Assembly (NCBI GenBank): GCA_017521605.1
Contig: JAFXCD010000020.1
Span: forward strand, 20,160 to 84,159
Length of the DNA: 64,000 bases
Direction of reading: 5' to 3'
Source of the DNA: Lachnospiraceae bacterium
GTDB lineage: Bacteria; Bacillota; Clostridia; Lachnospirales; Lachnospiraceae
This document shows, one piece after another, positions 28,726 through 47,996 of this stretch. The notes under the pieces were generated by a model. That model saw nothing but the letters and a program-made list of their open reading frames with translations, ran no database searches and had not been told where the DNA came from. The position numbers were made by a program, and so were the translations under genes. Each line of letters opens with the position of its first letter. The stretch's first letter is position 1.

Positions 28726-29012
28726 AAAAAAAGCTCGCCCCTTTCAAAAGGACGAGCTATAACTCGTGTTACCACCTCTAGTTCCCATGTTGCTCACGCT
28801 TCATGGCTTAGTAAGTATCAAACAATACTCCGGCAAATATCGGTGCCTACCGGCAATTTCTACTTGGCGTCTGCCACACCGTTCAAAATCACTGCTCCGA
28901 GATGTACTTCCCACTATCTGTTTCTGCGCCTCTCACCAGCCGGCAACTCTCTGTGGAAACCTTGATAAAGGTACTCTTCTCTTCAACGCGTCTTAATATT
29001 TTGTTGCAACTT
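28726..29012 (-). promoter_or_regulatory. Tyrosine T-box riboswitch (leader and terminator)
   Basis: The leader has the T-box sequence AGGTGGTAACACGAG (28763-28777 region), which can pair with uncharged tRNA acceptor ends. A strong terminator follows (AGCTCGTCC with GGGGCGAGCT, then seven T's; 28726-28758). Stem I contains AGAGTACC-type and CTGGTGAGAGG elements. The specifier codon is TAC (28904-28906), followed by A, i.e. tyrosine, agreeing with tyrS downstream. Uncharged tRNA-Tyr should favour the antiterminator and so tyrS expression. Confidence 0.93.
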
Positions 29013-44545: not shown

Positions 44546-45082
44546 CTATAACACTACTTTACACATATCCATTATTGCTTCAATTGTTTCATAATCTCTC
44601 TTAGCACGTGCTTGATATCTTTCTTCCACAGAATCAATATTGATAAGACTTAAAACTTTTCTACAGAGCATAACTACTTCTTTTTTCATACCTAAATCAT
44701 ATGCCCAAAAAATCATACCACTTCTTTCAGACAATATCTTTCTGCCCATAATCGTCTCTGCTATACAGAGTGCTGTTTTTGTATCCTCAATATTTATCTT
44801 ATCAATCAATCCCATCAAAAGGCATAGTGTGTTTCTATCATTAAAACATTCACACAACTCACAAATGCTATTAAACAAATCGACATCACCACTTTTTTCG
44901 AATTGCTTTACCTGGCCGTCAATCATTTCCTTCTTCCATTTTCTTTCCGTCATTGAGGAAATATTTAATTTCCGGTATAAATCATAATTAAGTTTGTCCT
45001 CTCTCGCCATCACAAACAAAGAACATTTGTTATTCATATAAACTCTTTTTGCTTCTTCTAAGGTCATTTTAGCTTTAAACAT
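44546..45082 (-). CDS. Hypothetical helical protein, second orphan array
   Basis: 178 aa, mostly helical and Cys-containing (ALCIAETIMGRKIL, ICELCECFNDRNTLCLL). A clear ribosome site (AGGAGGAAACGCT). No family recognised. The layout (alpha-helical, acidic/basic, single gene in a run of unrelated small - strand genes) resembles immunity or TPR-like accessory proteins. The upstream gap (45083-45153) holds nothing. Confidence 0.55.
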   Translation of the reverse strand: MFKAKMTLEEAKRVYMNNKCSLFVMAREDKLNYDLYRKLNISSMTERKWKKEMIDGQVKQFEKSGDVDLFNSICELCECFNDRNTLCLLMGLIDKINIEDTKTALCIAETIMGRKILSERSGMIFWAYDLGMKKEVVMLCRKVLSLINIDSVEERYQARAKRDYETIEAIMDMCKVVL

Positions 45083-45153
45083 AGCGTTTCCTCCTATTCA
45101 TTCCCCTAAGCCTGCGTATAAAATTATCTAATGCATCCTCTTCATTATCATAT

Positions 45154-45663
45154 TTAATTACTCACCATATGATTATTTCTATCTATATATTTCTCAGATG
45201 CATTCAAACATCTTTCGTACCATCCGTGCAAAGGATAAAACCCTACACCATACACCATAAACCCACCTTCTCTAATTGAATATAAGAATCCTCGTTCTAT
45301 TAATTGAATTAAAGGTTCATATATTTGTAAGTATTGTTCTAACTCCTTATCTCCTTCTGCATAATCTACAAGTTGTAAATAGCAATTTAAATTATATGCC
45401 GGTATAGAATAACCCACTAATGCATTTTGGACCTCCACACTACAATAATCAATATATTTTTTATCCGAACAATATCCCATTCCAAAAGCAACATTGATTA
45501 ATAGTGGCTTTAGCCTCTTTCGGTTTAGATTTTGTTTATCTATAAATTTTGCTATTCTCTTCAAGTATTCGTAACCCAGATACATTTCATCTTTTCCTGT
45601 TACTTTTCCTACTCTCTTCCAGTCTATTTTGTTAATTCTATTTATGGCTTCTTCTAATTTCAT
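45154..45663 (-). CDS. Hypothetical protein, second orphan array
   Basis: 169 aa from the ATG at 45663 (AAGGAG 4-5 nt upstream; an ATG at 45678 would overlap that site). Helical N-terminus (KLEEAINRINKIDWKRVGKV), then aromatic-rich SIPAYNLNCYLQLVDYAEGDKEL and VYGVGFYPLHGWYERCLNASEKYID. No family recognised. Its last 11 codons (TAATTACTCACCATATGATT on the + strand) reappear as a near-identical copy at 45979-46014, a trace of duplication. Confidence 0.6.
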   Translation of the reverse strand: MKLEEAINRINKIDWKRVGKVTGKDEMYLGYEYLKRIAKFIDKQNLNRKRLKPLLINVAFGMGYCSDKKYIDYCSVEVQNALVGYSIPAYNLNCYLQLVDYAEGDKELEQYLQIYEPLIQLIERGFLYSIREGGFMVYGVGFYPLHGWYERCLNASEKYIDRNNHMVSN

Positions 45664-45712
45664 AAGACTCCTTTCCATTAACCAAGACTCTAATACTTAA
45701 TAGTCATTAGAA

Positions 45713-45952
45713 TCAAACCCTCGTTTTCTTATTTGTTATTAATGGAGATGTAGGATCATTTTCAAAAAATCTCAATAGCTCTTCTATCTCATCGGCTTTC
45801 AGCGGATACTCTTTCACATATACTTCACATGCTACCCTTATACATTCCATAAACATCTTAAAATCAATTTTTTGTTCTTCATTCTCATCTAAGTAAAGCA
45901 TTACTCCATCATCATCATATGGAAATCTATTCTTAAACTCTTCACATACCAT
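45713..45952 (-). CDS. Small acidic hypothetical protein
   Basis: 79 aa from the ATG at 45952 (AGAGG 6-7 nt upstream). Reads MVCEEFKNRFPYDDDGVMLYLDENEEQ, then helices EYPLKADEIEELLRFFENDP. The first half resembles the small Imm/DUF families with a DDDG...YLDENE turn, but I cannot name it. It sits 35 bases upstream of the 169-aa gene and 27 bases after a duplicated tail. Confidence 0.5.
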   Translation of the reverse strand: MVCEEFKNRFPYDDDGVMLYLDENEEQKIDFKMFMECIRVACEVYVKEYPLKADEIEELLRFFENDPTSPLITNKKTRV

Positions 45953-45978
45953 TATTATACCTCTGTCTAAAATAAACA

Positions 45979-46014
45979 CTAATTACACACCATATGATTT
46001 TTTCTATCTATAGT
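45979..46014 (-). pseudogene. Duplicated 3' end of the 45154-45663 gene
   Basis: Encodes TIDRKNHMVCN-stop, matching the end of the 169-aa protein (YIDRNNHMVSN-stop). About 31 of 33 bases are identical (45156-45188 vs 45981-46013 region). It has no start of its own. It marks a former second copy or a recombination join in the array. Confidence 0.65.
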
Positions 46015-46032
46015 TCAAACCAATAAAACATA

Positions 46033-46506
46033 TCAACTCACCCCTAAAGGTGTCCAACTCTCTTCAAGTAATGCATCTATATCATATGCGTGTTCTTTAC
46101 ATACAAAACAGTTATCATCAATGTTTATGCCTCTCGAAATCAAACCATCCGTATTAATTTTTTCATCGATAACGACATAATTCTCATAATCTGTTATATT
46201 CAAATATGCCATTTCACCATCATTATCATAAAAAAACATATATTCAATTCCAGACGAATCAATATCATAATTAAAACTCAACAACATTTTGATACTTTGT
46301 TCATTAACTTTAATTGTATACATTAATAACTCCGAATTAGAAATTTCCGTTACCTCAACTACATTTTTAATCTTATCATTGCTATGTGTAACTATGATTT
46401 CTATTTTTGTTCCTCTTTCCTTAAGATAATCAAGAAAAACTTTCCAATTGTGTGAAGTATATCTTCCTGTTTTGTCATAACAGCCAATATATAAAACTTG
46501 TTTCAT
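46033..46506 (-). CDS. Hypothetical protein directly after a structured RNA
   Basis: 157 aa. Beta-rich and acidic (YIGCYDKTGRYTSHNW, FFYDNDGEMAYLNITDYENYVVI, SWTPLGV end). No family recognised. AGGAGGAAAA sits right at the ATG and only about 17 bases after the terminator of the RNA at 46523-46722. The gene can therefore be expressed only by read-through of that terminator or from an unseen promoter. It may be an immunity-like gene controlled by the leader. Confidence 0.6.
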   Translation of the reverse strand: MKQVLYIGCYDKTGRYTSHNWKVFLDYLKERGTKIEIIVTHSNDKIKNVVEVTEISNSELLMYTIKVNEQSIKMLLSFNYDIDSSGIEYMFFYDNDGEMAYLNITDYENYVVIDEKINTDGLISRGINIDDNCFVCKEHAYDIDALLEESWTPLGVS

Positions 46507-46522
46507 TTTTCCTCCTAGTCAC

Positions 46523-46722
46523 AAAAAGGTTGCCCTTTCGGACAACCTTTTCCACTTCTACTTATGCTGATTTTTCTGTTGTCTGCCAACTGTCCGCCCT
46601 TCAATATGCGGATTAAATGTGGAGTTTTTCTGTTGCTCCCCAACCTGCCAGCCTACGAACTGGCTTAATTGTCAGATTTTTAAGGTGTCAGCACACCCCG
46701 ATAGACGCATCTATCTTTGTAC
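46523..46722 (-). ncRNA. Unidentified structured RNA with consensus promoter and intrinsic terminator
   Basis: About 200 nt with no credible frame. Predicted helices in order: GATAGA-TGC-GTCTATC; GGTGTGCTGACACC; GCCAG-TTCGTAGG-CTGGC; GGAG-CAACAGAAAAA-CTCC; CCGC-ATATTGAAGG-GCGG; then the terminator AAAGGTTG...CAACCTTT with T's (46523-46551). The motif CAACAGAAAAA occurs twice, once in a loop and once about 55 nt on (ACAACAGAAAAATC). I compared it by eye with T-box, TPP, SAM, purine, 6S, SRP, tmRNA and RNase P patterns and saw no match. It could be a free sRNA or a leader/attenuator for the gene at 46033. Confidence 0.6.
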
Positions 46723-46726
46723 TATT

Positions 46727-46755
46727 ATTATATTAATTTACAAATTTAATGTCAA
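46727..46755 (-). promoter_or_regulatory. Perfect sigma-A promoter of the structured RNA
   Basis: TTGACA (46750-46755), a 17-bp spacer, then TATAAT (46727-46732) on the - strand. One of only two perfect consensus promoters I found in the window; the other drives the tyrS T-box. Confidence 0.9.
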
Positions 46756-46804
46756 GAGTACTGAATATTTTATGGAAATTTTATACTAAAAAAATCACGG
46801 CATT

Positions 46805-46924
46805 TTATTTACCATTTGGGGCATTCACATAGATATCTAATCCTGTTCCAGCATTTCTAACTTTATGATTACGCTTCACATATACATCATCGATTCCACT
46901 GTTACACTTAAGTTTTGACTCAAG
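46805..46924 (-). pseudogene. C-terminal remnant of an unidentified protein
   Basis: An open frame with no start reads about 40 residues, including CNSGIDDVYVKRNHKVRNAG and DIYVNAPNGK-stop. It overlaps the end of the DUF434 gene in another frame. The tail has the look of the end of a secreted or toxin-type protein, but I cannot identify it. The rest of 46756-46919 holds nothing else. Confidence 0.45.
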
Positions 46925-47675: not shown

Positions 47676-47996
47676 TTAATAATTCAACCTCTTTGATATC
47701 TTGATTAAAGTTTTTAGTTCCTCATCAGAAAAACCGCACTCATTCAAATTCAAGGCCTTTGCTTTAGAAATAGTGGTTTCCAGACTTTTTTTGAATTGCT
47801 CTGGTATTGTTTTACCACATCTTGCATACCTGGTAGCAATTGTAATGTTCAGAATGATTTCTTCAATCTCTTCCAAACCAGAATTGTAATAAAAACTCTG
47901 CTCTACTGCAATATCGTATTCACTTCCTTGATCAATCCAACCATAAAATATCTCTAAGGCTTGACACTTCTTTTGATAAAAATTAATTTTTTTCAC
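47676..47996 (-). CDS. Imm3-like hypothetical protein
   Basis: 106 aa, starting with GTG (AAGGAT about 9 nt upstream). All-helical: YQKKCQALEIFYGWIDQGSEYDIAVEQSFYYN..., IIILN-type core, and a C-terminal SDEELKTLIKISKRL. The arrangement of an acidic first helix, Y-rich turn and long second helix resembles Imm3-type immunity proteins, but the match is weak. Last small gene of the second orphan array, before the conserved pgeF operon. Confidence 0.5.
   Translation of the reverse strand: MKKINFYQKKCQALEIFYGWIDQGSEYDIAVEQSFYYNSGLEEIEEIILNITIATRYARCGKTIPEQFKKSLETTISKAKALNLNECGFSDEELKTLIKISKRLNY

Follow-up and report, generated by a model that had tools for sequence, protein, structure and literature searches.

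A tail-swapped, three-unit pseudoknot RNA family linked to PBECR4 genes, with a solitary copy in a Lachnospiraceae genome as a probable type III-like antitoxin

Analysis of a 64,000-nucleotide (nt) stretch of a Lachnospiraceae bacterium genome (assembly GCA_017521605.1, contig JAFXCD010000020.1, positions 20,160 to 84,159; hereafter the window) revealed an RNA of about 200 nt, encoded on the minus strand from ~46720 to 46523, as a member of a family whose recurrent downstream neighbor is a gene for a PBECR4 (PF18813) protein, a predicted ribonuclease (RNase) of the BECR fold. With a probability of roughly 0.78, this RNA is the antitoxin of a type III-like toxin–antitoxin module with a PBECR4-family RNase as the toxin, whose gene is absent here, leaving the RNA as an orphan.

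The locus opens with a promoter that matches the consensus at 12 of 12 positions (TTGACA, 17 nt, TATAAT; 46755–46727, minus strand), from which a transcription start is inferred near 46720. Downstream, CAACAGAAAAA is present twice (starts at 46635 and 46581, minus strand), and the 205-nt stretch folds with a computed minimum energy of −62.6 kcal/mol, a figure that excludes pseudoknots, compared with a mean of −46.9 (standard deviation 4.0) for 200 shuffles, none of which equaled it (z = −3.9). The terminator is followed by the AGGAGG and the ATG (46506) of an open reading frame (ORF) for a protein of 157 amino acids (aa), both 3′ of it on the minus strand (Table 1). A first-pass annotation of this DNA had described the perfect promoter, the compact helices, the repeated motif and a terminator placed just ahead of the ribosome site of the 157-aa gene, all of which were borne out; it overlooked the pseudoknotting and a third, 5′ unit (P0). 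Its view of a structured RNA outside known classes gained support, as an Rfam 15 search returned nothing at gathering score for the window RNA (noise alone at E-values up to 10) and no matches for 14 related loci.

A DNA search of 61 genomes recovered, besides the window itself, two short stretches that matched in part (L002 and L003). From these a unit was read as GUUG, five bases, CAAC and AGAAAAA, with a hairpin ahead. Of 392 genomes of the order, 15 matched a pattern for one such unit, and in six of these it occurred twice, 51–54 nt apart. Single copies prove little, because the backwards control of this pattern also matched 8 of the 392 genomes; single-unit loci such as L004–L006, L013, L017, L018 and L025 look like chance. 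The two-unit motif, by comparison, matched once in the window and not at all in 100 shuffles. Genome scans with it, on which the family counts rest, yielded at least 117 stretches, as well as six viral stretches (one of which, L265, looks like chance). Among the 80 of the at least 117 matches that were listed, Lachnospiraceae and other Clostridia predominated, with Listeria, Enterococcus and Lactobacillus also represented. The 140 loci with the two-unit motif include many duplicates of each other; they yielded 114 distinct RNAs, and 11 arrays that lay at a contig edge or had no GTTG were skipped. Ten RNAs with odd unit lengths or likely non-membership were omitted (L166, L180, L183, two of L184, L199, L203, L226, L239 and L267), leaving an alignment of 104.

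Across this alignment, the RNA comprises three hairpin-plus-pseudoknot units (P0, P1 and P2) with a hairpin ahead of each. P0 differs from the other two in its stem, which is GGUG/CACC in the window. The middle unit, P1, closes on itself, and the first and last swap tails. All six pairs between the P0 loop and the P2 tail formed in 86 of the 104 rows (24 sequence types), all four between the P0 tail and the P2 loop in 102 (8 types), and all those between the P1 loop and its own tail in 96 (18 types). Complete self-pairing of P0 or of P2 was seen in none of the 104 (single cells still pair in 72% and 66% of cases, respectively). Other connections were considered and rejected: a chained arrangement would pair the P0 tail with the P1 loop in 54/104 rows and the P1 tail with the P2 loop in 12/104 (all four pairs); of two further pairings, that of the P0 loop with the P1 tail fits 0/104 and that of the P1 loop with the P2 tail 9/104.

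Overall, 95.6% of paired cells were complementary in the 104 RNAs, compared with 80.9% after shuffling and 25–50% after sliding; 26 of 35 pairs vary on both sides, and none of 500 shuffles attained any of five pairing measures. The stems of P1 and P2 are invariant in this alignment because the search pattern fixed them. An H0 stem of at least 5 was found in 62/104 rows and in 13/104 shuffles. The tail-swapped topology is thus supported by covariation, and conserved pairing among homologs, a check that the first-pass annotation had proposed, turned out to be very strong. Three loci that the pattern missed, on an Enterococcus faecium plasmid, an Avibacterium plasmid and Streptococcus phage Javan100, have GGUG/CACC stems; in these and in a divergent PBECR4 locus of the window's own genome, the tail swap can be written as well (elements placed by eye), and at the E. 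faecium locus a pairing of the P0 loop within its own unit, with the P0 tail, is possible as well (4/4).

Two variations on this architecture were noted. The partial match L003 (1440–1590; genome G031, same genus) is reduced to P0 and a single further unit, which looks like the result of a deletion between units, and no PBECR4 was seen adjoining. By eye, terminator loops of many relatives (e.g. L009, L011, L016 and L181) share a recurring CURCGGY-like motif, which is not in the window and should be dispensable for termination.

Table 1. Features of the RNA locus, in window coordinates
Feature	Position	Strand	Basis or remark
−35 hexamer TTGACA	46750..46755	−	promoter match
−10 hexamer TATAAT	46727..46732	−	promoter match
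H0, 5′ hairpin GAUAGA-UGCG-UCUAUC	46700..46715	−	stem
Unit P0 hairpin GGUG-UGCUGA-CACC; loop UGCUGA pairs with P2 tail	46684..46697	−	covariation
P0 A-rich linker UUAAAAA and tail UCUG; tail pairs with P2 loop CAGA	46673..46683	−	covariation
H1 hairpin	46647..46664	−	pairing count with controls
Unit P1 GUUG-GGGAG-CAAC, linker AGAAAAA, tail CUCC; H-type pseudoknot GGAG/CUCC	46621..46644	−	covariation
H2 hairpin	46593..46612	−	pairing count with controls
Unit P2 GUUG-GCAGA-CAAC and linker AGAAAAA; loop CAGA pairs with P0 tail	46571..46590	−	covariation
P2 tail UCAGCA; pairs with P0 loop	46565..46570	−	covariation
Rho-independent terminator	46523..46551	−	hairpin and T run
157-aa ORF, AGGAGG at 46511–46516	46033..46506	−	occupies position of PBECR4 in relatives

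The loci were found by the RNA motif alone, and their downstream genes pointed to a recurrent partner. Among the well-aligned arrays, 82 had a downstream stretch long enough to judge, and PBECR4 or its remnant was present behind 64 of them (46 intact, 18 broken or truncated), so that the gene was broken, truncated or absent beside an intact RNA in 36 of the 82. When the count is widened to every assessable array (105, among them likely chance matches and one duplicate), the gene or a remnant was seen in 76. In the reverse direction, PF18813 retrieved 27 loci, 24 of them judgeable, and 12 of these 24 had two canonical units upstream. Every one of the 46 aligned PBECR4 proteins (of 60 distinct ones) matched PF18813, and neither Pfam nor NCBIfam gave any of them a match to a ToxN-type family. 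Searched with a PBECR4 profile, the PDB offered two weak, unrelated matches and no ToxN- or CptN-type chain; the AlphaFold model is good, and its second-look alignment gave weak matches alone, with no ToxN-type fold among them, a result that excludes nothing.

PBECR4 genes also reside on mobile elements: a phage search with one protein gave one record, and a plasmid search with another gave 89, 56 of them predicted to be conjugative. Four plasmid or phage regions were read, three with the RNA and one without. RNA–PBECR4 modules are carried, for instance, by the E. faecium plasmid pEfm741160-vanA (L296) and by a plasmid of Avibacterium paragallinarum, a gammaproteobacterial host (L297). In L295, from a Ligilactobacillus salivarius plasmid, 4 nt separate PBECR4 from a preceding ORF and the RNA unit is missing upstream; a protein may take the place of the RNA as the partner of some PBECR4 genes. 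Inspection by eye of divergent PBECR4 loci (L284, L288, L286, L289, L273, L276 and L287) revealed other promoter–RNA–terminator leaders upstream; that of L284, for instance, has two pseudoknot-like repeats of the GGUC type. These leaders suggest that one toxin family may be served by several RNA classes. Our search, confined to open-access literature and for most hits to listings, found neither a reported PBECR4–RNA system nor the PBECR4 domain named.

In the window itself, no trace of PBECR4 was detected (best E-value 1.8), and a remnant there was accordingly rejected. The sole PBECR4 gene detected in the assembly lies on another contig (L268, C122, about 83300–84200); it is divergent, and the RNA upstream of it, likewise divergent, has one canonical unit and tail–loop complementarity in the swapped arrangement. 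Two RNA specificities may therefore coexist in this genome, contamination being a possible source of L268 (the assembly is 92.9% complete and 6.0% contaminated). The nearest RNA relative of the window copy (93% RNA identity) is likewise toxin-free and has different neighbors. As DNA similarity between the two is confined to 46516–46805 and ends right after the terminator, promoter, RNA and terminator appear to act as one cassette. Also among the closest RNAs is that of the Lachnospiraceae locus L185, which carries PBECR4. At another orphan RNA (L014), an ORF resembling a GNAT acetyltransferase was seen by eye at the PBECR4 position.

The literature cited here describes three families of type III systems, whose toxins share a ToxN-like fold (PMC5086642). 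Like these, the window RNA has a promoter followed by tandem RNA repeats, and a Rho-independent terminator ahead of the downstream gene is present in the window and in 92 of 101 aligned loci with sufficient sequence (13 of 101 shuffles). The toxin gene directly downstream in type III systems has its counterpart in the RNA family (64/82, gene or remnant), but not in the window. Whereas type III toxins are homologous to ToxN, PBECR4 lacks such sequence homology (46/46 are PF18813 proteins), and whereas every type III repeat is a self-contained H-type pseudoknot, here this holds for P1 only (96/104; P0 and P2, 0/104). Judged from sequence, the RNA would act like a type III antitoxin, yet it falls outside ToxIN, CptIN and TenpIN because its family lacks both a ToxN homolog as toxin, judged by sequence, and repeats that are all self-contained.

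Individual systems illustrate these likenesses and differences. CptIN of Eubacterium rectale has, upstream of the toxin gene, two 45-nt genetic repeats, each forming an H-type pseudoknot in which L1 is a single base and the longer L2 contains A-minor twists (PMC4627078). The P1 unit of the window resembles this pseudoknot; in contrast to the self-contained CptI unit, the first and last units here exchange tails, and CptN is among the toxins homologous to ToxN (PMC12373285). ToxIN/AbiQ and TenpIN, the latter with repeats of about 50 nt in 2.1 copies (PMC12373285), have a terminator between RNA repeats and toxin (PMC5086642), i.e. the gene order of the RNA–PBECR4 loci, but their toxins are ToxN homologs rather than PBECR4 and ToxI units are self-contained pseudoknots. 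AbiF-RCd22 of Clostridioides difficile, whose RNA, with two repeated motifs, neutralizes in trans the toxic RNase encoded downstream (PMC12373285), also resembles the RNA–PBECR4 loci in placing a repeat-bearing RNA ahead of an RNase gene (RNase activity being predicted for PBECR4); the AbiF toxin is a HEPN (Abi_2) protein, whereas the proteins here are PF18813 members and no Abi_2 partner was found. Iyer et al. in 2017 described the PBECR domains of phages and conjugative elements, solo forms included, as predicted RNases with a BECR fold; in the examined portion of that text, PBECR4 and noncoding RNA go unmentioned and no RNA partner was seen (PMC5512222).

Which gene the RNA serves had been read differently at first: because the terminator immediately precedes the ribosome site of the 157-aa gene, the first-pass annotation proposed a conditional leader. 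Control of that gene in cis by a riboswitch or attenuator is highly improbable, given that the recurrent gene downstream of the RNA is PBECR4. Among the matches listed, the 157-aa gene follows the RNA in the window only, other copies being followed by PBECR4, its remnants or other genes; with no constant downstream gene and no Rfam class, a riboswitch or attenuator was rejected. The 157-aa family is also rare (2/99 and 2/397 genomes, the own genome counted each time), and a tblastn search of 299 loci returned, besides the window's own copies, two relatives, both without RNA units; none was found in viral contigs or plasmids. The end of similarity to the nearest orphan RNA right after the terminator likewise speaks against this reading. 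Only slightly less improbable is that the 157-aa protein is a replacement toxin held by this RNA. It takes the place that PBECR4 has in relatives, and lengths of 140–162 aa are tabulated for many CptN and TenpN toxins (PMC6315513), but it matches no family, toxin families included, and its comparison with the PBECR4 profile gave a probability of 0.4%. One of its relatives lies between two RHS cores (TIGR03696; genome G718), the other behind an ORF that matches SMI1/KNR4 weakly, below the cut-off (G436). These contexts suggest immunity genes, and on them the 157-aa gene was rejected as the partner of the RNA: its product is probably an RHS-toxin immunity protein, the gene is probably not part of the RNA's system, and most likely it happens to follow the terminator. 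The other option of the first-pass annotation, a free abundant RNA, came nearer to the present reading as an RNA antitoxin.

An orphan-immunity island is possible around the locus (44546–46506 and 47676–47996, minus strand), where some of the small unassigned ORFs have weak, sub-cut-off matches to immunity-like families (Imm3, E = 0.015; CdiI_4, E = 0.029). Elsewhere in the window, a T-box leader (RF00230, 102.9 bits) lies at 28745–28995 on the minus strand.

Granted PBECR4 as the partner, linkage and structure alone cannot separate an inhibitor from an activating cofactor or guide. We regard the latter as unlikely, since PBECR4 is broken, truncated or absent beside so many intact RNAs (the 36 of 82 noted above), as expected for a toxin with a harmless antidote, and since the order promoter, RNA, terminator and RNase is a known antitoxin layout (PMC5086642). 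A more serious contender, though still the lesser chance, concerns the solitary copies, which might be non-functional relics of recent toxin loss with no protective role. In its favor, broken or truncated PBECR4 genes stand beside 18 of the 82 arrays, and the orphan state is dispersed over a quick RNA tree (19 changes, at least 8 of them forced by starred branches), with clustering no greater than in shuffles. Against it, promoter and helices are no less well preserved in orphans than in complete loci: a best promoter score of at least 10 was reached at 12/21 orphan loci and 26/50 loci with intact PBECR4 (13/300 shuffles), and tail–loop helices were paired in 98.3% of cases in orphans (n = 21, window included) vs. 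97.6% in intact-toxin loci (n = 51). In addition, the toxin-free state of the nearest relative amid other neighbors implies that toxin-free cassettes persist.

Taking the RNA as an antitoxin, the strong promoter would drive an RNA of about 200 nt that ends at the terminator and folds into three hairpin-plus-pseudoknot units. These contain A-rich linkers; the middle unit would be self-contained and the outer two locked by tail exchange. In complete loci, the terminator would keep the RNA in excess over read-through toxin mRNA, by analogy with systems described in PMC5086642 and PMC4627078. By the same analogy, we infer that the RNA binds and blocks PBECR4, presumed to be an active and toxic RNase. 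The exchanged tails point to an RNA that acts as a single interlocked entity, or to pairing between the units of different molecules within the complex. A solitary RNA could then serve as a standing antidote in trans against matching PBECR4 modules on plasmids and phages, or be a recent relic. The fullest version of this idea, tentative and somewhat short of an even chance, is a new kind of RNA antitoxin, in which a three-unit RNA with interlocked outer units stays intact as a clamp on a ToxN-unrelated RNase and solitary copies are kept as RNA immunity genes against incoming PBECR4 modules, at this locus directly beside protein immunity genes.

The family described here pairs a nuclease unrelated to ToxN by sequence with a type III layout and a pseudoknot RNA of its own; given this shared layout, RNA control of RNase toxins may have arisen more than once. 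The RNA gives PBECR4 a likely role, its tail-swapped topology is open to direct probing, and protection of hosts by toxin-free RNA antitoxins becomes a testable question.
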